Assembly: GCA_030248295.1 (NCBI GenBank)
Contig: JASANH010000306.1
Location: 19,668 to 83,667, forward strand
From: Mesodorylaimus sp. YZB2_4
Taxonomy: Eukaryota; Nematoda; Enoplea; Dorylaimida; Dorylaimidae
Direction of reading: 5' to 3'
DNA: 64,000 nt
This document shows positions 22,762 through 60,982 of the stretch, in pieces; the stretch's first letter is position 1; every line of letters begins with the position of its first letter. Under the pieces are notes generated by a model. The model saw nothing but the letters and a program-made list of their open reading frames with translations. It made no database searches and was not told the origin of the DNA. Both the position numbers and the translations under genes were made by a program.

Positions 22762-24443
22762 TCAAACGCGAGTCGTAAATTCATTTTCATACACGACACC
22801 CCAGTTTCGCTTTTCAAAGTGCTTCTTAACGAAATTGAAAAGTTCCGTCTTTTTTTCAAGAAGATGATCCAGCCCCTTTTCCTGAATTTTTTGTGCCACT
22901 CTATCTAATCTTAGTCTGAACTGCCTGTACTGCAGGAGATTGTGATATTTCCTCGCCTGTGTGCGGCGGAACTGTCCAATTTTATTAGACAACTGCGATC
23001 CTGGGTCCTTGGCGATCGCAGCGGCTGTTGGCAAAATGTCATCCGGCCCATTCAAATACTTGTCGATCAAGTATTTCTGTACGTTTCCATCTACGCCATC
23101 ATCGTCGTTATCCGCGTGCTGATCAAGCATAGTTGTATCTGCTTGGGCCAAACGATCCAAAATTGTGGCCCCGCGAATGCAATGCTGGGGCTGTGGATCG
23201 ATATAATTTGTCTTGGCAATCATAACCGAGTGGCCAATCAGCCCTGCAAATTCTTCTTGGTCATCCTGGGTATTTAGCGACTTTGATTGGGTTTCGGCGA
23301 TATGTCGAGCTTCACTTGATGTAATTCTGAAAGGGCTCGCCATTTGATTTAGAAATCGATCGCGGATGGCTGAAGGGTTTTTCAAATGCGATCGTTTGTT
23401 TAATGTGATGAAAAATGGTTCATCACCTTTTTTGGCCGGGCTGCGAAACAGTTCGAAATACGCCTCAAATAGCTTGGCGTCTTCTTGACTTAACGCTATT
23501 TGGTGTATCCCCTTTGTCTTGGCTGTTTTATGTTTGGCTAATCCGATTACAACCTTGTTATCCACCTTTGATCGATGTAGCCAATCATCGACTTGCAGAT
23601 TCTTGGCCACTTTGGGCCTCTGCAAATAAACAAGCTGCAGTTTTGCAACCAAATATCGTTGCAAGAATGAATGGTCGGCGCTTGAATTTCGCTCAGCCCG
23701 CGAAATGATTTCGTCAATTCTCTTTTTCACATCCCTGTTGTCGAACATTCTTCTTAGTGCCCCCAATGATCGTTTTTGTTTTCTCCGATATTTCTCCGCC
23801 GTTTTGCTCAGTTTCTCTTTGGCTATTATTTTGCCCGTCCTTTTTAGAATCCGATTCAATGACACCCGCGCCCGCTGCAGCATTTGTAGCGAGTTTCTGT
23901 TCCGAATATGACTGAATCCGATCAGCCAATCTAGAAAATTTGCTGCGGACGTGACAACGCGGCGCAATGTTTGGCCTTTCAGTTTACACGCTTCCATCGC
24001 ATGGACGAATGATAAAATACGGGTTATTGTCAAATTCTCAGCCAACTCTTCATCATTATTCAAATTTTGCAAAGGCAGCTCGTACTTTGAATAGATGTGA
24101 GCCAACATGCGAGCGACATATTCGGTTTCTTGATTTAAAATCGCCTCATTCATTTGTTGTTTCGTTTGGAATTGCTTGGAGCGTATTAATAGAGCCGTTT
24201 TTGAATCGATGCGTTTAAATAGGCCTTTCTGTTGTTCGATTAGTTTGCCACTTCCCTCGCTAAACTTTATGCCTTCTTTCGGATCGACGATCTTTGGGGG
24301 CCTCGCTTGCTTAAGCAACTGTTTCAATTCTTCATCACCATCATCGTCAGCTTGCGCCTCATTTACATCACCAGCTAAGCACGAAGAAGATGATGATGAC
24401 GACGTTGATGATGAGGTTGATGATAATCCGAATCGGGTATGTT
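22762..24443 (-). CDS. Tyrosine recombinase-like protein (Crypton-like)
   Basis: The open frame covers about 521 codons from a TTG at 24327 and extends open upstream to about 24517, with no ATG. A candidate acceptor (CATACAG) at 24444 suggests that it is a downstream exon. Numbering from the TTG codon, the N-terminal 200 residues are basic and helical, as in core-binding domains. The catalytic half carries an arginine in YLQRPKVAKNLQVDDW (R237), a basic beta-hairpin (AKHKTAKTKG), ITSSEARHIAET (R341), GLIGHSVM (H366) and a tyrosine in TNYIDPQ (Y375). This fits the R-K-R-H-Y order of tyrosine recombinases that cut and join DNA through a phosphotyrosine. The layout resembles invertebrate Crypton-type proteins. 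No disabling stop is seen within the frame. The upstream serine-rich stretch and acidic DDDGDEE lead in to the domain. Confidence 0.62.
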
Positions 24444-25285: not shown

Positions 25286-25990
25286 CGCGTGACCTTAAAA
25301 AAGGGATTTGAAATTTGAGCCTCGTCTGAAAACTGCGATCACGGCCATCACATTGATCACATAAGCGCCTCGAAAAGTCATCCTAATGATGGATCGCCTC
25401 AGATAAACACCACAAACTGCTGGGGTCGAACCTTACTGTAATCCTAGCGCGACAAGCATAGGATTCAACAGGTTTATTCTAACCCAAGATGAACGATATG
25501 ACTCGCTTACCAGTAGTCGAAACAGAAAATAATGAAAGAAGGCGAAAAAGTAATAGGGATCAACCGATCGAGCTGACGAAAAAAGAACACATCGACTGGG
25601 AGAGAAAACTCGCCTCCTTTTATAGACGCCTTCCTCGGTGACCTCGATTAGAGCGAGGAAGCGCGCAAACAATGGGCCACTGGCGTAACAAAGGGCCACG
25701 ATCAAAACAAGAGGCCGCACGATCAAAACAACATGGTCATATATGTTAGTTGTGTACTGCCTGCCCTTTGCTGGTATGCATAGCTATAGTGTGCAGGCGC
25801 CGAGGCTAGTCGGGCCTATCTCTCTCTCTTGTTTGTGTGTCAAGATACCTCTGAAACCAGTTATAAGGAAAACGTGGAAGAACCTTTTGGCCATTTCGAT
25901 TTTTTTGACTTATTCATCAACTTTTTTTCACCAAGTAGCCTGCGAGGGCGAAAGGTGGCATTAGAAGAGAAATTGGAAAGATTGATCTGC
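25286..25990. other. Region between the recombinase element and the LINE ORF1
   Basis: No gene is recognised. It should contain the promoter side of the minus-strand recombinase element and the 5' untranslated region of the LINE. The LINE 5' end is not marked by any repeat or target duplication that I can see. Confidence 0.4.
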
Positions 25991-25991
25991 G

Positions 25992-27494
25992 ATGGACGCG
26001 CCAGAGATCATGATGGAGAACGAAGAATTATCCGAGAACGTAACGGCGACGAAAATAGGAGAAGATAAGATTGCCTTCATTCCACTTGAAATCAACAACC
26101 TGCTGAACAAGCAACCTGGTGAAATTGTCAAATCGATTGCTCTGGAAAACCCGAAAGAGAAACACCCCATCTGCGCTTTGCGACTGAAGAAAGTGATCAA
26201 ACTGATTTTTGCCACGAAAGAAGCCAGAGATTGTGCTGTCAAAGAAAAGTTGTCGCTCTTCGGCCTTCGGGTCGAGCTCGATTATCCGAGGCCGTACGTC
26301 CCGATGCAACGGAAGACCATCTACTTATACGGTATTCCTTACGAAACAGATGGCGATGAGATCAAAAAGTGGTTGAAGGAGCAAGGCTTAAATACGGTAT
26401 CAGAAGTTAGGAAAACATGCTGGAGGGACACAGAGATCGAAAACGGAGGAAGATCAGTCGTCGTCCAGGCCGCACCAGGAAAAGAAATTCCTGGATTCGC
26501 CTTCTTCAGGCCATCCCCGCGATCGAAGCCAGTAACAGTGCAGATTTGGTATCCTGGTATCGATGTGTGGTGTTGGAAATGCAAAGGAAAAGGCCACATC
26601 TCGAGACAGTGTCCAGCGATGGATTATCAACCACCACCAGGATCCTATGCCGCGATGGCGAGTGGCACCGCCGGAGGCGGATTTCGAACAGTATCCAACA
26701 TAAACGAGTCAGTCGCAGATCGTACCCAAGGAGCTGGAGGCGTCGACAACGAGAATTTCCCCCCTCTGACAGCATTAAATCCGACGCAGCCTCTGGTCAG
26801 GAGAAGGAAAGAGAAAGATCACAGAACCAGTGCAGAATCCGAGGTGCTTTCCAAAGCGGATATCCATCCTTTCTTCAAGGCTGAAAATCCTCTGTCAAAC
26901 CACCACTCGTGCTCATTTATGATCGAGGGTCAGACCTATGCATCGACAGAGCAATATCTCTTCAAGGCGAAAGCTGTAGCCATGGGAGACAAAGCGGCGG
27001 AGAAAAGAATTATGAAGGCGAAGTCAGCCAATGAAGCCAAACAAATCGGTGAGAAAATACAGTGGGACGAGGAAGCAAAGGGGCCTTGGATGGCCTTCGC
27101 AAAAGAAAAACTATGGCTCGCTAATGAAAAGAAATACGAACAGAATCTTGGATTGAGGAAGCACCTGTTTGAAACGGCTCCCAAGCTCTTGGTCGAAGGG
27201 AATCCGAACGACGATCGGTGGGGCGTTGGAATCAAATGGGACGATCCTAAGATACAGGACCCGGCCAATTGGAGAGGAAAGAACGAATTTGGAAAATTGC
27301 TCACACAGCTGCGAGACGATTTGATGTCACGATCAATGTACGCCGAGGAAGTAGACGAGGTGGCGAGGCAAAGAGAACAAGCGGATGAAAGAAGCAAACG
27401 ACCTTTGAGCCCAGACAGCGAATCGAGCCAAGACGACGACCATCGATCCAATCGCAAGCAAAGGACCGAAGACCCAACGGACACAGACTTCTGA
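25992..27494 (+). CDS. LINE ORF1: RRM-like, CCHC knuckle and NADAR domain
   Basis: The 500-aa protein starts at an ATG. Residues about 105-160 look like an RNA-recognition fold (RKTIYLYGIP as RNP2, RSVVVQ as RNP1). A retroviral-type zinc knuckle follows, with C194, C197, H202 and C207 (CWKCKGKGHISRQC). After a proline/serine linker, residues about 290-445 form a NADAR (YbiA/DUF1768) domain: NPLSNHHSC, YASTEQYLFKAKA, ENP-type EGNPNDDRWGVG and WRGKNEFGKLLTQLRD are the family blocks in order. The C-terminus is acidic and serine-rich. In LINEs, ORF1 packages the RNA. NADAR proteins are glycosidases acting on riboflavin intermediates, or removing ADP-ribose from guanine in nucleic acids. The enzyme-like residues appear kept, so the domain may be active. 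The role here is inferred. Confidence 0.85.
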   Translation: MDAPEIMMENEELSENVTATKIGEDKIAFIPLEINNLLNKQPGEIVKSIALENPKEKHPICALRLKKVIKLIFATKEARDCAVKEKLSLFGLRVELDYPRPYVPMQRKTIYLYGIPYETDGDEIKKWLKEQGLNTVSEVRKTCWRDTEIENGGRSVVVQAAPGKEIPGFAFFRPSPRSKPVTVQIWYPGIDVWCWKCKGKGHISRQCPAMDYQPPPGSYAAMASGTAGGGFRTVSNINESVADRTQGAGGVDNENFPPLTALNPTQPLVRRRKEKDHRTSAESEVLSKADIHPFFKAENPLSNHHSCSFMIEGQTYASTEQYLFKAKAVAMGDKAAEKRIMKAKSANEAKQIGEKIQWDEEAKGPWMAFAKEKLWLANEKKYEQNLGLRKHLFETAPKLLVEGNPNDDRWGVGIKWDDPKIQDPANWRGKNEFGKLLTQLRDDLMSRSMYAEEVDEVARQREQADERSKRPLSPDSESSQDDDHRSNRKQRTEDPTDTDF

Positions 27495-27623
27495 ACACGA
27501 CGGACGGACGATCGACATCAGCATTATTGCCGAAAGGTGAGCAAGGGCCAGAGTACCAAACTGACCTTGTGTTTCCCCCTGGGGTTTTTTTGTGGGTTAG
27601 CAGAATAACCTTTTTTACTGTGT

Positions 27624-28766
27624 TTGGTTTCCTTTTTTTCTAAAATAGGTGGCGATAGGATATCCTTTGCGACTTTAAATGCAGCAGGACTGAGAGATAA
27701 ACCAACCAAGACTGTATCCTTTTTTGACTTTGTAAAATTATATTCGATTGTGTGCATTCAGGAAACCCACTTCAGAAATAAGAAAGAGGCATCGTATTTT
27801 GACAATGTTTTTGAGGCCAGGTTTAAAGTTTTCCACAGCTTCTCAGACGAGTTTAGTGCAGGTGTGTGTTTGCTCATTAATCGATCTTCCCTGTTTTCGG
27901 ACATTACCCGTTTGACGAGTGTTGATGGGCGTGCTATCCTTTTGACTGCCAAATATGAAAGTAGAATTTTTCTTGTGTGTGGTTTGTATGCTCCAGCTCA
28001 GGAAGCGCCGAGGAAGATGTTTTTTGAGAGTCTTCTTGAGAAGGCATTACAAAGGTTTAGGTATCATGATGCGGCTGTGTGTCTGGGGGATTTTAACTTT
28101 GTAGAATCGAAGGAGCTCGACCGAAGTGAACTTACTTTATATACTGAAGCTGGACATAAAGAATTTCGAAAGTTCTCTTCGAAATTCAAGCTTCTCGATA
28201 TTTTTCGGTATCATAATCCTAGTAGCAAACTTTTTTCGCATCTGGCACATAGTACAAAAACTCAGGGCAGACTTGATAGAATTTATTGCACACAAAACTT
28301 AGTTGAATCTTATGTAAACTATGACTTCATTGATACAGCTCTGTCTGATCACAAAATCTTTCATGTAAATTGTAACTTTGCGTTTGCACAGATTAAGAGG
28401 GGACCGTCTTACTGGAAGCTTGATGTTGATCTACTGCAAAGAGACGAAGTTTTGCGGGACCAGATCAGAGGCAAGCTGCAGTCTTTGCAGACTAACATGG
28501 AAAGTGCGCACGACAAGGAGGTACTGTCCATGTGGGAGGATTTCAAGGATGAGATAGCGTGTTTGTGCAAAGCACATAAAAGGTACATTGAAAGGGAGAA
28601 TAGAAGGCAACGAGCAGAGTTGGAAAAAGCACTGCAAAAATGTAAGGCGTGGTTAGGAATGCACCCAACTAGCGAAATGCTGAAAGCGGAGTTTTCGGAC
28701 ATTCGCGAGCGACTAAGAACGTTTGATCGTGAGGAAATCAGGAGAAGATTGGGAAAAACACATTAA
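27624..28766 (+). CDS. LINE ORF2 N-terminal part: APE-type endonuclease
   Basis: This is the 5' part of ORF2, which nicks target DNA to prime reverse transcription. Catalytic blocks of apurinic-endonuclease-like LINE nucleases appear in order: ATLNAAGL (N), CIQETHF (E), LYAP, LGDFNFV (D and N), GRLDRIY and LSDHKIF (D, H). A helical linker with many lysines and arginines follows. The frame begins at a TTG; no ATG exists before the catalytic asparagine, so initiation is either non-AUG, by reinitiation after ORF1 (same frame, 129 nt apart), or depends on splicing. GTGAGC at 27537 and CTAAAATAG at 27648 resemble an intron. It ends at a single TAA (28764-28766) that splits ORF2. Confidence 0.8.
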   Translation: MVSFFSKIGGDRISFATLNAAGLRDKPTKTVSFFDFVKLYSIVCIQETHFRNKKEASYFDNVFEARFKVFHSFSDEFSAGVCLLINRSSLFSDITRLTSVDGRAILLTAKYESRIFLVCGLYAPAQEAPRKMFFESLLEKALQRFRYHDAAVCLGDFNFVESKELDRSELTLYTEAGHKEFRKFSSKFKLLDIFRYHNPSSKLFSHLAHSTKTQGRLDRIYCTQNLVESYVNYDFIDTALSDHKIFHVNCNFAFAQIKRGPSYWKLDVDLLQRDEVLRDQIRGKLQSLQTNMESAHDKEVLSMWEDFKDEIACLCKAHKRYIERENRRQRAELEKALQKCKAWLGMHPTSEMLKAEFSDIRERLRTFDREEIRRRLGKTH

Positions 28767-31181
28767 AGGGATTTAGCAACGGATCAATTTACGTTGGTGA
28801 CTGCTAAGTTAATGCAAAAAGCCTCAGCGGAGCAGAGGGCAGTGTATGCGATTAATGATGAGAATGGGGTCACTCACTTCAACCAGTTGGACGTGATAGG
28901 AGAGATAAGGAGGCAGTACGAGGGTCTGTTCACAAGTGTGGGCAGAGTGGACACTGCGGCAGCTGATATTTTCCTGACGCAACAGCCGCACGGCACAGCA
29001 GGGGACGAGGACAGAGCAATTCTAGGAGAAGAAGTGAATGAGGACGAGGTTGAGAAAGCAATGAGGTCTTCCCAGAAGAGGAAAACACCAGGCAGTGACG
29101 GATTGCCCATTGAATTCTACGCCATGTTTCCGGCTGAACTGTCTAGTGTCCTATGTCAGGTATACGCATCCTCTTTTCGCTTAGGGAAATTGCCGCCGAG
29201 CTGCTACTTTGGCATCATCTCTCAACTGTACAAAGGGGAAGGGGATAAGAAGGTCAGGTCCAACTGGAGGCCATTAACAATGCTGAATGTCGACTATAAA
29301 ATATTAGCCAAAGTTCTGGTAATGAGACTGAGGAAGGTAATGCGCAAAATCGTTCATCCGGATCAAACCTGTGCTGTGCCAGGGAGGGATATTAGGGACG
29401 GGGTGCTTACCATCTATAATGCTGCAGAATATGTGAAGGAGCAAGAGATGGACGCCCTAACTTTGTCGGTGGATCATATGTCAGCTTTTGACATCATCGA
29501 ATGGGAATATCTTTTCCGAGTGCTAGATTTTTTTGGACTGGGGCCTGTTCTCCAAAAATGGGTTGGTATAATCTACAGAATAGGATCAGTGAGTTCGTCA
29601 GTTCAGGTAAATGGATACGTGTCCTCGCCTTTCAGTCCGACCAGGGGAATCAGGCAGGGCTGTCCCCTGTCGGCTTTGCTCTACGTTTTGGTCTCTGAGA
29701 CTGTAACCAATTTCATAAGGAGGGACAGAACAGTGAAAGGCATCGATGTGTTTGGGCAACAACTAAAACTGAACAACTATGCAGACGACACAAATTTTTT
29801 GCTTGCTGACTCAGAGTCTGTAAAACGTGTGTTTGAGGTATACAATTTGTACAAGCGGGCTTTTGGGGCAAGATTAAAAATAGCCAAAACGAAGATTCTG
29901 TTGCTGGGAAAGATGAAAAAGGACTGCTTGGAGGCTAACCTGCAGGACCTAGTTGTGAGTCAAGTGAAAGTATATGGTTTCTTAATTAAAAACGAGGGAA
30001 TGGAGATAACAGAAAATTGGGAAGCAGTGCGAAGACACATAGGCAAGCTGGGGGATAAGACTCCTCACACTGAGGTGTCCTATTTTGGTAGGGTATACGT
30101 GGCCAATACCTACTTCCTGTCCAAACTTTGGTATTTAGCATCAGTAATTGCACCAGAAGATGATTTGCAAAGGTTTGCTGAGACACAGATGGACTCATAT
30201 CTTAGGCATCCGGCTAAGCAGAATGTGATAAACAAGCTTATTTTGAAAAGGACCAAAGAGCAAGGAGGAGTGGGGTACCCTGACATTGGCTTTAAGGTGC
30301 TTGCATTTCGCTTAATGTTGTTGGTACGCAGGCATTTGGCTCAGGAGAAGGCTGTATGGCACTCTTTCTTCGATTACTTCTATGGTAAAGTAGAGAAGGC
30401 GACTTTGCCGCAGATTAGCTCTATACAGACACCCCGTTTATACAAGGACGTTCGGAAAGCCGTACTGAGTGCTAAATTTAGTATTTTGAGTGATCATAGT
30501 GTAGGTCTGGATTCGAAGACTTATCCAATAAAGCATGTAAAAACCAAGCTTTTGTATAGACATATGCTTGAAAAAAAGGTGGGCAAGGCCAATAGGGCAA
30601 TTGAGGAATATTGGAGGGAGAAGTTTAGGAAAGAATCGATTGACTTTGGTGCATATTGGAGACTAAATACAACAAAGCACGTCGATGGTCTGACACGAAG
30701 CATACATTACTCCCTTCTGTACAAAGGATTGTATACAAGGAGCAGAGTGTCCAAGTTTACAGATGTTAGTCCAAATTGTAAGTTCTGCACAGAGATGGCT
30801 GGCGAGGATAAATGCGAAGACGTTTATCATGTTTTTGTCGAGTGTCACAGGTTTCAGATTTTTTGGAACAGAGTAAACGTACTCATTCAGGGTTTCGACC
30901 CGACCATCACTTTGAAAGAGGAAAGCAGGATTTTTGGAGTGACTGGCGGAAAATCCTCACATCTGAAGGTGATTGTAAATTTGATTTTACAATCAGCGCA
31001 GAGATGCATCTGGTTTGCTAGAATGGATTATGAGGAAAAGAATTCAGACACTGACCTTTGGGTTTCACTTTTAAAGCGCCTTCGACTTTTGTTTAAAAGA
31101 GCTAGGTATACCTTGACACCGCATCTGTTTAACGAGATCTTTGTAAAGTCTTCTTTTTTGTTCAGAATTAGAGAGGGATAA
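28767..31181 (+). CDS. LINE ORF2 C-terminal part: reverse transcriptase
   Basis: It continues in the same frame as the endonuclease after one TAA, so the two are halves of one protein. Reverse transcriptase blocks are complete: TPGSDGLPIEFY, YFGIISQLYKGEG, NWRPLTMLNVDYKILAK, DHMSAFDIIEWEYL (catalytic D), GIRQGCPLSALLYVLV, NNYADDTNFLL (catalytic DD) and GFLIKNEG. Downstream lies a LINE-specific thumb and, near the end, a CCHC motif (CKFCTEMAGEDKCEDVYHVF) typical of the Tx1/L1 branch. The ATG at 28803 is probably incidental. Read as a unit with the upstream part, the protein is about 1,186 codons, the usual length for this group. No other stop or shift is present. Confidence 0.85.
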   Translation, partial: RDLATDQFTLVTAKLMQKASAEQRAVYAINDENGVTHFNQLDVIGEIRRQYEGLFTSVGRVDTAAADIFLTQQPHGTAGDEDRAILGEEVNEDEVEKAMRSSQKRKTPGSDGLPIEFYAMFPAELSSVLCQVYASSFRLGKLPPSCYFGIISQLYKGEGDKKVRSNWRPLTMLNVDYKILAKVLVMRLRKVMRKIVHPDQTCAVPGRDIRDGVLTIYNAAEYVKEQEMDALTLSVDHMSAFDIIEWEYLFRVLDFFGLGPVLQKWVGIIYRIGSVSSSVQVNGYVSSPFSPTRGIRQGCPLSALLYVLVSETVTNFIRRDRTVKGIDVFGQQLKLNNYADDTNFLLADSESVKRVFEVYNLYKRAFGARLKIAKTKILLLGKMKKDCLEANLQDLVVSQVKVYGFLIKNEGMEITENWEAVRRHIGKLGDKTPHTEVSYFGRVYVANTYFLSKLWYLASVIAPEDDLQRFAETQMDSYLRHPAKQNVINKLILKRTKEQGGVGYPDIGFKVLAFRLMLLVRRHLAQEKAVWHSFFDYFYGKVEKATLPQISSIQTPRLYKDVRKAVLSAKFSILSDHSVGLDSKTYPIKHVKTKLLYRHMLEKKVGKANRAIEEYWREKFRKESIDFGAYWRLNTTKHVDGLTRSIHYSLLYKGLYTRSRVSKFTDVSPNCKFCTEMAGEDKCEDVYHVFVECHRFQIFWNRVNVLIQGFDPTITLKEESRIFGVTGGKSSHLKVIVNLILQSAQRCIWFARMDYEEKNSDTDLWVSLLKRLRLLFKRARYTLTPHLFNEIFVKSSFLFRIREG

Positions 31182-31189
31182 GAGAAAAA

Positions 31190-31603
31190 AAAAGAAGATA
31201 AAGATCGAAATTAAAAAAAAAAAAAATTTAATGAAAAAAAATTATATATAATAAAATATTAAAAAAAAAAAATTGAATAAACAGGAAAAAAGAAAAGAAG
31301 AAGGAAAAAAAAAAGAAAAAATATATTTAAAAAAATAAAAAATAAATAAAAAATAAATGAAATATAAAAAAAATTTAAAAACAAAATAATGAAAAAATGG
31401 AAAAAATGTGTGCGTGTGTTGCGCTACGTATAGTACCTGGGGAGGGGGACTACTCCCCGCTCACCAAGTAGGCGGTGGCTCGATGGAGAGAAAGAAGATT
31501 AAAAACGACAAGTGATTTATAGTGATATGATTAACCTGGTGGTTATGTTTGTATTGATTGCCTCAATTCCGTTTATACAATAAAAATGCATAGGAAAAAA
31601 AAA
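31190..31603 (+). other. LINE 3' untranslated region and A tail
   Basis: An A-rich tract with AATAA and TAAAA repeats fills 31190-31400. A GGGGAG/CTCCCC hairpin lies at about 31439-31459, AATAAA at 31579, and an A9 run at 31595-31603. Confidence 0.65.
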
Positions 31604-43120: not shown

Positions 43121-44174
43121 TCAGCCTAAATTGGCCAAATTATAATCGTTGCCACTCGGCGAGGTCAGCGAACCAAGTCCCACATGGCTAGGAGAATTGA
43201 ACAACAAAATGCTTGAAGTTGGAGTACGAACTGGTGATGTCATTTGAGGACCATTGGGAACACTCGGTTGCTTGGTAATTTTTTTCAATCTTAAATATTC
43301 TCTTTTTTCTTCGAGATAAGCCCTCTTTTCTGCTATTAAAAGCCGCTTTTCTTGATATGCAGCCGTTTTCTCAGCAAGTAATAAACGATTTTGCCGCACC
43401 ATTTCCAATTGCTCCTTGACCAAATCTTGCTGCAAATTGAACAAAGGCACAGTCAGTGGACTTCCAGCTGCGAGCTAACCGCTTCGAGCACGAATTCCAA
43501 CTCTTTTTTTTCAGTGGTAAATTGGGGAAGTTTGGGACCACACTTGCAGCGGAAATTGTAGCATCCATTTGTTGAAAATTCTGATTATTTTTCTGCTCAC
43601 GCCTGATATCATCGTGGTATCCGCCATCCTGATTCACATCGACGCTGTCATAAAGATTTTGTGCCAAATTATTTACGTCTTCTTCAACTTCATCATCCGC
43701 TGATGCAGCACCAATGGCTTCTGCTGCAGTACCAGCTCCACTTTCCATACCTGACCCTATCCCTTCTAACGAATCGCCAGAAGATCCATAGACGATCTCG
43801 TACATTTTCATAATGAACGCATCGGGGTCATCCGGTTTTGGTCCGCCTCCAGTTTTGTGTCGGCGTAGGGCAGTCGCGTAAGCACGAGTTTGCTTTTTCG
43901 TATTTTCGATTTTTAATTTGATTTCATCCAGGGTACATGGACTGTCAATTGCTGATATATTAAATTCTTTTTCCAAATCAAGCCAAGCACCCGCCTGTTG
44001 TTTATTCGTAACCTTTTGACCCTGACCGACTATGATCTCGTGGTGGCCTTCATATAATTCGACCAAAATAGCAGCATCCTTTAAAGTCCAGTTGGGGCGT
44101 CGCTTTTTAATGTTAGCTTCATTATCCATAATTTTAGGATTAGTCTGACTCACTCTTTTTTGAGCTTTTTTCAT
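43121..44174 (-). CDS. Harbinger Myb/SANT-like accessory protein
   Basis: An ATG at 44174 starts a protein whose residues about 25-95 form a Myb/SANT-like trihelix domain (RPNWTLKDAAILVELYEGHH, AWLDLEKEFN, CTLDEIKLKIENTKKQTRAYA). An acidic middle part follows. The frame diverges after an A8 run near 43510. In the adjacent frame the sequence continues as a likely intron and then a coiled coil (43121-43434: QDLVKEQLEMVRQNRLLLAEK, EKRAYLEEKREYLRLKK) ending at 43121. In Harbinger elements this protein binds the element ends and brings the transposase to the nucleus. The A-run slip may be a real frameshift or a sequencing error. The element's subterminal AACTG repeats resemble Myb sites and are the natural candidate target. 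Confidence 0.75.
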
Positions 44175-57341: not shown

Positions 57342-60300
57342 TTACTCGAACTCGCAATACGCGACACTCGGGAGGCGAAAGTAGAAGCTGATTAGGGACA
57401 GAGGATAGATTTTATCACACATTATGTCGTCATATGCGTCTAGACTCTTCAGTGTTCTTGGTGATAATTTCGAGGGGAACGTGTTTGTTGGGAGAAGGCA
57501 GCTCGACGACGCGAATCGGATCCATTTGACTTTGGCCTGTTCGAGTTCATCTGCTGTGAGTTCGTGATTTGGATGTTTGACTTTTGAAACAATTCGAAGT
57601 ACCCAAGCAGTGACTCTGATCAATATGGTCAAAGATGAAAATTTCTTGTGATTGATAATGGCTTCTAATCCCCGCTTTGGAGCCTCAGGGGCGGCAAGGG
57701 TCATGCATTGTCTTTCTTCAGATGCAACGTTGTTCATGGTCAAGTTGTCCTTTGAATTAAAAGCATTGAATGGAGGCCAGTTCTCCTCGATTTTCTGGCA
57801 CAGAAATTCGGGTCCATGCCACCACGGGGCGGAATTGAGGAGGACCTTTGCTGGAAGGCCTCTTTAAGCGAGGTCTGCTGGATTGCGTTCCGTATCCACG
57901 TGATGGTATTCGGCTTTAAATTGATCCTTGACTTGATCGACGCGGTTGCGCACAAACACCGTTAATGGCTTTTCGGAGTGAAGCCAATGGAGGACACACT
58001 GTGAATCCGTCCATAAAACGTGGCGTTGAATAGGCATATGCGGTGATTTAGAAATGAATTCATTACACCTTTTGCCAACGTGTACTGCCATGAGTTCGAG
58101 GCGTGGTATTGTCATTGTTGGACGCAGCAGCGCTAATCGAGCCTTTGCGAAAAGCAGTTGCGATTGGATTTCGTTTTCATTGGTAATGCGCAGGTATGTG
58201 CAAGTGCCATACGCATCCATGGAGGCATCGCAAAAGGTGTGCAATTCGTATGTGGAGCCATTTTCCAGGAACCGTGGTACTTCGAATGTGGAAATCGCAG
58301 TAAGGTCCTGGGTGATCGATTGCCATTGATCGATTGCTGTTGCTAAGATTGGGTCGTCCCAACCGATGTTGTCCTTCCACAACTTTTGAAGCAGGATTTT
58401 TCCTTGCAATAGTGCTGGTGACACGAGTCCCATTGGGTCAAAAAACGAGGCGATGTGTTTCAGTATTGTCCTCTTTGTGGTCGGGTTCTAATGGTCGAAC
58501 GCTTCAGGTGTTGGAAGGGACAGGGTGTCACTGTCTGGATTCCATGGAAGGCCCAGAATTTTAAACTTTCCGGTGGCTCGATCCTCTGCGGGAATGTGTT
58601 TCAACGTTGTTTGTGAATTCGCCATCCATTCACGTGCGTTCATTGATGCCGCGGTGAAGAGCCGTTTGGTTTCATCGTAGAATTTGATGGCGTCTGACTC
58701 TGTACTGACTCCTGTGATGATATTGTCGACGTAGATGTTTTGGGAAATTTTTTCGGCAACTTCACCTCCAGTGTTGCGAAGATGATGGTTGATTGTTGCG
58801 GCTAGCAGGAAAGGGCTGCTAGTAATGCCAAACGGTACCCGTGCGAACCGGTAGCATTCCAAATTGTTGTCTGTGGAAAGAATTCCAGGGTTGCGTAACC
58901 ACAGGAACCGAGTAACGTCCTTTTCGGTTTCTTGAAGGGCAACTTGTAAAAACGCCTTTTCTATGTCAGCTGCTAGAGCAATTTTGTTCAGGCGGAATCG
59001 CAAGATGATAGCTACAACTTCATCCAGAATAACTGGACCTCGGTATAAGCAATCGTTGAGGCTTTTCGAATCTGGATGGGTTTTTGCTGAGGCGTCGTAA
59101 ACGATTCTCAATTTTGTTGTTCTTTCGGGATTGAAAACAGCGTGGTGGGGAATGTAATGTATTTTGTTTGTGGTTGGCTGCGAAATGTCGACCTTTTCGA
59201 TTACCCCTTTTTGTAGTTGATCTTCGATGACCTTTTGATACTGCTCAAGGACGACCGGATTTGATTTGTAACGATTGACCAACGACGTTAGACGTCCTGA
59301 GGCAAGTCCAAAATTTGTGGGCAATGCGGGATCCTCCTCTCTACAGGGCCAAGTGACAGCGTACCGACCGTCTTCGTAGAGTACAGTCTTTTCGAAATTT
59401 TGCACAGCAGCTTCGTCTCCAGGATCCATAGCCTGGTCCTTGATGCCTAGTGTTTCTAGGTTCCACATGAAGCTGAGGTCTAGTCCTGTTGGTGGAGGTG
59501 TGTTGGCTGTAAACTGCATGTCGTTGTCTTGCGTCCCAGAACCGGACCAAAGTGCAGCGATTGTTGTGATTGTGCTGGTTTCGTTTTTTGTCATTTCGGT
59601 TTGCCTTCCTCCTAGGAGCCATCCCAGCGAGGAACTGATCAAATGCAGACCTGTGGGTGTTGATATTTTCTCTCCTGTCAAGAAATCCCACATGTAGTCC
59701 GCTCCGATGAGGAAGTTGATTGGCGTTGTTTCGGGTTGGACAGGAATTGAATCCGCCAATGGCAGATCGCGGAAAAGCGTATGAAAACGATTGACGTCGA
59801 TTGGCGCCCTTCGGATTGCACCTGTGATTGTTGGTATGACGTTCGCGTTGAAGCAAACGAGTTGACCGTTCGGGAGACGAATTCGGACTTCCGTGACCAT
59901 CGATTGGATCTCCTTTGGAGGAGCTTGACCGAACGTGTAAACTGACAAGCGTCCAGCGGGTTTGGGTTGTAAGCGCAGTTGATTTGCCAGTTGCTCTGTG
60001 ATGTAGCTTTTCTGGCTTCCATTATCGAATACACCTCGTGCAGTGAAAGCGTGGTCGTTGCCACTTGAAACGAAGGTTGCCAATGCGGTTTGCAGGAGCG
60101 AGGTGCCTTGTGGGGCCATTAGAGTGTGTGCTTCTCCCTGAAGGCCAGTATTTGTTGGAGGCAATGCTTGCGCGGGTATTGGATGATCGACCAATGTTGC
60201 GGAACGTGCAGCGTCTGGATAGCGATCCAGACATATGCTGGAGTGATGATGCTTGACTTTGCGGCATGTGAAACATGGCTTAATCCTTTTGCATTCCTGG

Positions 60301-60982
60301 GTTGAGTGATTGGGTTTCAAGCAGTTGAAACATAGGCGTTGTTGCTGTAATTTTTGTTTCCTTGCGGAGCCGTTGGATGCGAGCATCATCGCAAAGTGAC
60401 CTGTTTTAGCGCAGAAAGGACAAGCGGACCACCCGTCTGGCGCTCATTGTCGGCGTTGATGGGGACCATTGTTGGTTGTTTGTGGTTGTTTGTCGATTGA
60501 ACCGCTCCTGTCCGACTCTGCGTTCGTGGATTTTTCCAGTGTGCTGGAGGTTTGGACTGCGCTGAAGTGAATACGCACTTGCGGTTGATTGTGCCCCTTT
60601 CTGAGAGATTCGGTCTCCAATGGGCCTTCGGATTCATGGGTATCCTTGGGTCCCGAAGCTTGATACGCGCTTTCATGAATTTGCAAGTATGTGCGGAGTT
60701 GTTCTCTCAGAGTATCCACATCCCATTCCTCTCGGATTCCTCACGTTTGATTTCCATTCGTTCCACGACGGCTGGTGGAAGTTTGCGGTGGATGACATGT
60801 AGAAATGCGATTGGTTGACATCTTCTCCCAGGGCCTGCAATGCGTTTAGGTGCATGTCCAGTTGATCGACGATTGGTCGAAGATCCCGTTGTTTTTGTGC
60901 AGGTGCTAGGTCCATCAATGCCAGTGTGATGCGCTTTTTTGATTTGTGCATCATTTCCGAACCTTGCTTTGAGCATATCCAA
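57342..60982 (-). pseudogene. Bel/Pao retrotransposon gag-pol, broken copy
   Basis: Read on the minus strand: a gag part with frame changes (60982-60386); zinc knuckles CFNCLKPNHSTQEC and CFTCRKVKHHHSSIC; an aspartic protease (VFDNGSQKSYI); reverse transcriptase with LAADIEKAFLQVAL and the active site NIYVDNIITG; then RNase H (HTFCDASMDAYG, LWTDSQCVLHWLH), up to the pre-integrase segment KKFSSLTILIRVTAWVLR. Breaks: a frameshift at the first knuckle (about 60389), TAG at 58488 and TAA at 57864. The order protease-RT-RNase H and the YVDN box identify Bel/Pao. The integrase core and both LTRs are absent; the element fades out near 57342. It forms one arm of the inverted pair with the copy at 61049-64000. 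Confidence 0.85.
57628..60571 (-). repeat. Left arm of large Bel/Pao inverted repeat
   Basis: This segment is the reverse complement, with scattered differences, of 61049-64000. Paired positions add up to about 121,620-121,628 along the whole length, so only a few bases of indels separate the arms. The right arm is cut by the window end, so the repeat may be longer. Confidence 0.9.

Follow-up and report, generated by a model that had tools for sequence, protein, structure and literature searches.

Does a retrotransposon of the nematode Mesodorylaimus sp. YZB2_4 carry a NADAR domain as a working part of its own ORF1 protein, and what would such a domain do for the element? The question is raised by a LINE within the window, the whole stretch of 64,000 nucleotides analysed here (contig JASANH010000306.1, positions 19,668 to 83,667, forward strand). 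The element occupies positions 25787..31603 of the plus strand, from its 5' boundary to the end of its A-run. The boundary at 25787 is common to the window copy and five sister copies at other sites, and the flanks differ among all six family copies compared. The A-run end at 31603 is the same 3' end as in L018 and L025, with earlier ends in the other copies. Target-site repeats are clear by eye at L019 and L023 only, and the window copy has a weak ATGCA. An AATAAA-like polyadenylation signal and the A-run lie at 31578..31603 (+), and A-runs are seen in the copies shown, as is typical of L1-clade LINEs.

The element contains ORF1, an open frame of 500 amino acids (25992..27494, +), followed by ORF2 on the same strand. 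The first part of ORF2 is an endonuclease (EN) of the APE type (27649..28763; Pfam E 2.9e-8), and the second is the reverse transcriptase (RT) with the C-terminal part (28794..31178; RVT_1 E 4.4e-27). Human L1 ORF2p is the closest solved relative of both (E 2.4e-14 for EN and 5.5e-45 for RT), and the order of an APE-type EN before the RT is that of L1-clade LINEs. These matches bear out the original prediction of an L1-like LINE. Its description as almost intact is likewise correct: the single defect of ORF2 is an in-frame TAA at 28764..28766 (+), which is private to the window copy and missing from the five sister copies compared. Other features of the window include a minus-strand frame at 58491-60389 with a DUF1758 peptidase and RVT_1, a fragment of an LTR-type element which we take to be Bel/Pao-like. 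A 521-amino-acid frame at 22765-24327 (-) has no Pfam match above the cut-off and may by eye resemble a tyrosine recombinase, and a Myb/SANT-like DNA-binding domain is located at 43374-44174 (-; PF13873, E 7.9e-9).

The NADAR domain is built into ORF1 of this LINE. It covers residues 290-448 (26859..27335, +), as delimited by the Pfam profile, the structure model and the residue alignment. Pfam NADAR (PF08719) matches residues 297-444 over profile positions 9-162 of 163, with an E value of 1.2e-28 and a score of 100.9 bits (cut-off 35.1). The SN, EQYL, NPNDDRWG and GKN blocks that had been noticed in the sequence are all present, and the model predicts the YbiA fold of the NADAR superfamily. 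In the modelled order, an RRM fold is followed by an RRM-like stretch, the knuckle region and the NADAR. The RRM fold (residues 20-101; 26049..26294, +) is assigned from the secondary structure and pLDDT of the model, and the second RRM-like stretch (residues 106-186; 26307..26549, +) is modelled with low confidence in part. Tandem-RRM chains align to the ORF1 model over about residues 20-160, with a high rmsd. The CCHC zinc knuckle (residues 194-208; 26571..26615, +) matches zf-CCHC with E 0.0012, slightly under the Pfam cut-off (19.3 versus 20.8 bits). ORF1 therefore has the RRM and CCHC elements of the L1 clade, the former by fold and the latter just below the profile threshold, and the NADAR is located after the RNA-binding parts and the knuckle, as predicted.

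The active-site residues are largely retained. The residue set was taken from PMC11543638 and mapped through 8bau and the alignment; by our reading of the alignment, the 8bau chain numbering runs two ahead of that of PMC11543638. In the window protein the set corresponds to E320, K327, W366, E402, D407 and W410. Among 18 LINE NADAR rows, E320, D407 and W410 are each kept in 17, the remaining row having a gap. W366 is present in 17 rows (Q in one) and E402 in 16 (one G, one gap), whereas position 327 is K in 14, R in three and a gap in one. A nine-row LINE alignment shows no variation at four of the six ligand or catalytic positions and one deviating row at each of the other two, and six host NADAR rows are looser than the LINE rows at three of the six. 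E43 and K50 in the Phytophthora numbering correspond to E320 and K/R327. The K-to-R exchange in the E. coli C7 enzyme kept hydrolysis in vitro and lost rescue from DarT1 (PMC11543638). E402 supplies the Glu found at the E125 position in the YbiA subfamily; the DarT1-linked subfamily has Asp there and a DarT partner, and the genome has no DarT match. One LINE copy, L014, retains the domain and no longer has Glu at 402. Where the Phytophthora enzyme has R93, which contacts phosphate, our reading of the alignment puts an alanine, A370, in the window protein. The comparison was confined to the residues named, with the ligand contacts K75, R79, Y84 and D86 outside it. Conservation of E320, D407 and W410 in a set made up of the best 80 among 445 bacterial relatives and in an IMG/VR set (47) is no evidence in this respect, because both were collected by patterns containing these residues. 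Loss of the active site, which would speak against a working enzyme, is not what the aligned LINE rows show.

The fusion recurs across the genome. Searching 145 Mb in 1067 contigs gave 75 NADAR profile matches, a lower bound in which fragments and host genes are counted. Seventeen of these, counted from the match table, are full-length (profile start at or before 15, end at or after 158) and stop-free. For 15 of the 17, an L1-type EN follows directly downstream; the remaining two, C22 and C230, look like host genes. The many loci, with 15 intact NADARs adjoining a LINE EN, rule out an assembly join confined to a single copy, the artefact by which the fusion might have been explained away. The ORF1 N-terminus alone has 49 genome matches. 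PF01060, which we take to be a nematode-specific family, has 27, in agreement with a nematode host.

Copies with a readable ORF1/ORF2 junction were sorted by junction and similarity into ten groups, A-J. The 15 intact LINE NADARs are spread over groups A-H, with H close to A. A frame change or stops break the NADAR in group I (C56) and in group J (C49), which has diverged furthest. The check for NADAR-less relatives covered three stronger N-terminal matches without an adjoining NADAR match (L026, L027 and L028), and weaker ones such as C199, C336, C40, C208 and C107 fell outside it. L026 matches L017, a copy with a NADAR, at 99% identity as far as the domain start, continues into unrelated repetitive sequence and rejoins L017 inside the RT; given this identity, its lack of a NADAR reflects later loss by rearrangement. 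In L027 and L028 the ORF1 match is cut off by the contig end. Two near-identical NADAR LINE copies at L009 (929-1408, -, and 2287-2763, +) are divergently oriented, with their NADARs about 0.9 kb apart. Host-gene-like NADAR frames are seen at L158 (C18), L156 (C230), L162 (C4), L157, L163 and L159-L161; some hold more than one divergent NADAR per frame, and one may be SNA-3.

Between groups, the NADAR is conserved at the protein level while silent sites have diverged. For the 21 pairs among seven LINE NADARs, protein identity is 0.52-0.70 and identity at four-fold sites 0.16-0.51, and four-fold-degenerate sites are near saturation between groups. The corresponding protein identities (21 pairs) are 0.56-0.76 for EN and 0.61-0.81 for RT, the upper values belonging to the pair of the window copy and L021, whose ORF2 silent sites are unsaturated; without this pair the ranges are 0.56-0.66 and 0.61-0.66. 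The N-terminal part of ORF1 has 0.40-0.53, the near-identical pair L012-L013 excluded. Judged from these alignments, the NADAR is shown to be held by purifying selection between groups, about as strictly as EN. Among six young copies, pN/pS is 0.38 for NADAR, 0.47 for EN, 0.61 for RT and 0.76 for the ORF1 N-terminus, values that rest on 15 non-independent pairs. The low ratio of the NADAR is no sign of recent constraint, since it stems from a high pS (0.040; the other three parts have 0.014-0.024) and the NADAR pN is not low (0.0151, above their 0.0105-0.0113). The L021 and window proteins are 76-81% identical in ORF2, and their ORF1s have diverged as between distant groups, silent sites included; this points to exchange of ORF1 and ORF2 modules between LINE groups.

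The LINE NADARs also group together in a FastTree phylogeny of 115 of 165 NADAR rows, built after removal of near-identical rows and of rows with fewer than 85 aligned residues; the host genes C4, C230 and C444 are absent from it. One clade with a local support of 0.998 unites 11 LINE rows, the ORF1-like proteins P0001 and P0002 and the NADAR fragment P0003, the last three from samples other than this genome. The next node out joins P0014 and two host rows with a support of 0.243, and deeper nodes are weak. The sampled host NADARs, including the tandem C18 genes, were considered as a source, and they show no supported grouping with the LINE clade in a tree whose deeper nodes are weak. Most simply, a single NADAR capture would predate the split of the present groups. 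P0014 is a NADAR protein on a 403-kb contig that falls outside the LINE clade and could be eukaryotic. A search with the NADAR region alone gave no match, missing even two proteins that the whole-ORF1 query found.

How ORF2 is started bears on where the NADAR would act. In 23 of 26 copies read, spanning groups A-G and many of them near-identical, the frame holds no Met from the closest stop upstream down to the EN core, and the window ORF2 likewise has no in-frame AUG there. The loci concerned, besides the window copy, are L009-L025 and L164-L183. The exceptions are L022 (group H), with an in-frame Met and a frame open far upstream of the core, L183 (I), with a Met some 36 codons ahead of the IGSK stretch, and L181 (J), with an ATG immediately ahead of the core. 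The window copy contains a candidate intron of the GC-AG type at 27454..27648 (+), whose phase-1 pair of sites has GT-AG-like homologues in other groups; excising it would link ORF1 and ORF2 in one frame, with the NADAR before EN. CGTAAG occurs at one homologous place in the ORF1 tail in groups A, B, D, E, G, H and I (within B, L011 and L169 carry it and L182 has CGTTAG); the place reads CGCAAG in group F, that of the window, and CGTCAG in group C. At the other side, ATAG followed by G lies ahead of the core in all groups except B and J. In 14 of 18 copies analysed by script, the two sites agree in phase 1, counted in the NADAR frame, and joining them creates no stop; such a pair is lacking in L011, L013 and L025, and L022 has only a different one. 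CGTAAG looks to be kept at the DNA level, because in five ORF1s CGT accounts for 15 of 121 Arg codons and AAG for 89 of 215 Lys codons. Another window site, at 27536/27537 (AAAG before GTGAGC), was rejected since joining it to the 3' site used would not keep the ORF1 frame.

We hypothesize that splicing would fuse ORF1 to ORF2, and that retention of the intron would give ORF1 alone. Counting against such splicing are the GC-AG pair in the window's group, the weak 5' site in group C, the lack of a fitting 3' site in group B and the in-frame Met in three groups (H, I and J). Intron-less copies were found for neither group A nor group F, so the splice model gains no support from this side. Spliced human L1 copies are described (PMC5860796), and no LINE with an intron between its ORFs is among the literature matches listed. 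A search for SL1 RNA found no match in this genome and none in the control genomes either.

What, then, would the NADAR do? The reading we prefer, at somewhat under an even chance, is that a YbiA-type NADAR, captured once and kept by purifying selection, acts as an RNP-bound guanosine-ADP-ribose hydrolase protecting the RNA or cDNA of the element. It builds on the organisation of ORF1, the presence of the domain across groups, the retention of active-site residues and the constraint, all of which are established at the level of sequence. With its RRM(s) and knuckle, ORF1p would coat the RNA of the element; the NADAR would thereby sit on this RNA and hydrolyse ADP-ribose off guanosines there or in freshly made cDNA. 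Left in place, such marks would interfere with translation or reverse transcription. Should ORF2 arise as a splice fusion to ORF1, the NADAR would also travel beside EN and RT to the insertion site. This chemistry is in line with previous results: among the hydrolases tested, NADARs, YbiA included, are the sole ones reported to reverse guanosine ADP-ribosylation of RNA (PMC11833690), and they reverse it on DNA as well (PMC11125620). E. coli YbiA is weaker on RNA than the C7 NADAR (PMC11833690). Retention about as strict as that of EN across groups suggests a substrate met in every element cycle.

Going one step further, the marks may come from a host enzyme that ADP-ribosylates the nucleic acids of transposons or RNA viruses. 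The lack of a DarT match in the genome counts against this host-defence step. In its favour, PARP has ten genome matches, nine of them above the cut-off, found exon by exon, but we know of no guanine-specific PARP. Neither phosphate-end marks (PMC11833690) nor PARP10-made marks on uracil (PMC13036486) are removed by the NADARs tested, and an ordinary PARP may therefore be no source of the LINE NADAR's substrate. A nematode defence by guanosine ADP-ribosylation, countered by an RNA-bound eraser that is also splice-fused to EN and RT, is a distinctly unlikely combination, made less likely by the in-frame Met of group I. In full, it would have a regulated splice start the AUG-less ORF2, a gag-pol-like switch combined with a counter-defence enzyme, and this we regard with the same considerable doubt.

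Rather than protecting the element's own nucleic acid, the NADAR may bind or remove PARP-laid ADP-ribose at the nicked target and so aid target-primed reverse transcription. The genome has PARP-type matches, the putative splice fusion would set the NADAR directly before EN, and between groups the domain is about as conserved as EN. We nevertheless consider this role unlikely, as the NADARs tested do not act on phosphate-end marks (PMC11833690) and a combination of LINE-1, PARP and retrotransposition terms returned no literature match. The host being a nematode, the NADAR could instead dock element RNA to spliced-leader or cap-binding factors as in SNA-3, a protein that depends on its NADAR residues and makes contact with the cap-binding complex (PMC9303266). 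In favour of such docking, ORF2 is without an AUG in most copies and carries splice-like signals; against it, the LINE NADARs do not group with the sampled host NADARs with useful support (0.243), a weak argument from a tree with no row identified as SNA-3. We regard this role as quite improbable. A soluble ADP-ribose derivative or a riboflavin intermediate, whose cleavage might for example blunt a host signal, is a still less probable substrate: YbiA-type proteins cleave riboflavin intermediates (PMC11125620, PMC9303266) and phage NADARs are proposed to target soluble ADP-ribose derivatives (PMC9503650), but fixation inside an RNA-coating protein would better fit a nucleic-acid substrate. Finally, ORF1 proteins need oligomer and RNA contacts and L014 keeps the domain without the Glu at 402, yet a fold serving only in structure or RNA binding, with no catalysis, has little probability given the near-invariance of the six positions in the nine LINE rows.

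The original interpretation as a whole is thus partly supported, and hydrolysis of guanosine ADP-ribose on element RNA or cDNA remains our preferred reading. A NADAR in a LINE hints that worms may ADP-ribosylate nucleic acids and that the element counters or uses the marks. If the domain is an eraser of guanosine ADP-ribose, this would argue for animals placing the mark on transposon nucleic acid, and the element would provide a direct genetic handle for finding it. We know of no enzyme or role for guanosine ADP-ribose on transposon nucleic acid in worms. The mostly AUG-less ORF2 with its conserved splice-like signals poses a second question, namely how the LINE makes its polymerase.

Several known systems resemble this element. 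Closest are the Tx1 LINEs of Crassostrea gigas, reported in a single sentence to have a NADAR in ORF1 (PMC12477816); they share a YbiA-family NADAR inside the ORF1 of an L1/Tx1-type LINE, but the host is an oyster and the passages of that source on these elements hold no tests of selection, residues or RNA signals. The same source describes Gypsy elements of Ectocarpus, also retrotransposons with a built-in YbiA-family NADAR, which differ in being LTR elements of a brown alga with the domain in Pol, and it suggests a role of retroelement NADARs in processing RNA intermediates (PMC12477816). No other NADAR-bearing retrotransposon is among the literature matches listed. Animal plus-strand RNA viruses, including nematode nidoviruses, similarly have a NADAR in the replication proteins of an RNA-based parasite, where it is proposed to remove host ADP-ribose (PMC9503650); they are viruses rather than LINEs, and their sequences are absent from our tree. 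DarT1-linked NADAR antitoxins and E. coli YbiA share the fold and the compared active-site residues (PMC11543638, PMC11125620), but are free-standing bacterial proteins, and the DarT1-linked ones have Asp where the LINE NADAR has Glu (PMC11543638). Nematode SNA-3 also places NADARs in an RNA-handling protein, although it is a cellular protein with three NADARs that functions in trans-splicing and is not an RRM-knuckle LINE protein (PMC9303266). A NADAR in LINE ORF1 is accordingly known already, whereas neither a nematode lineage of such LINEs nor signs of selection on the domain appear among the literature matches listed.
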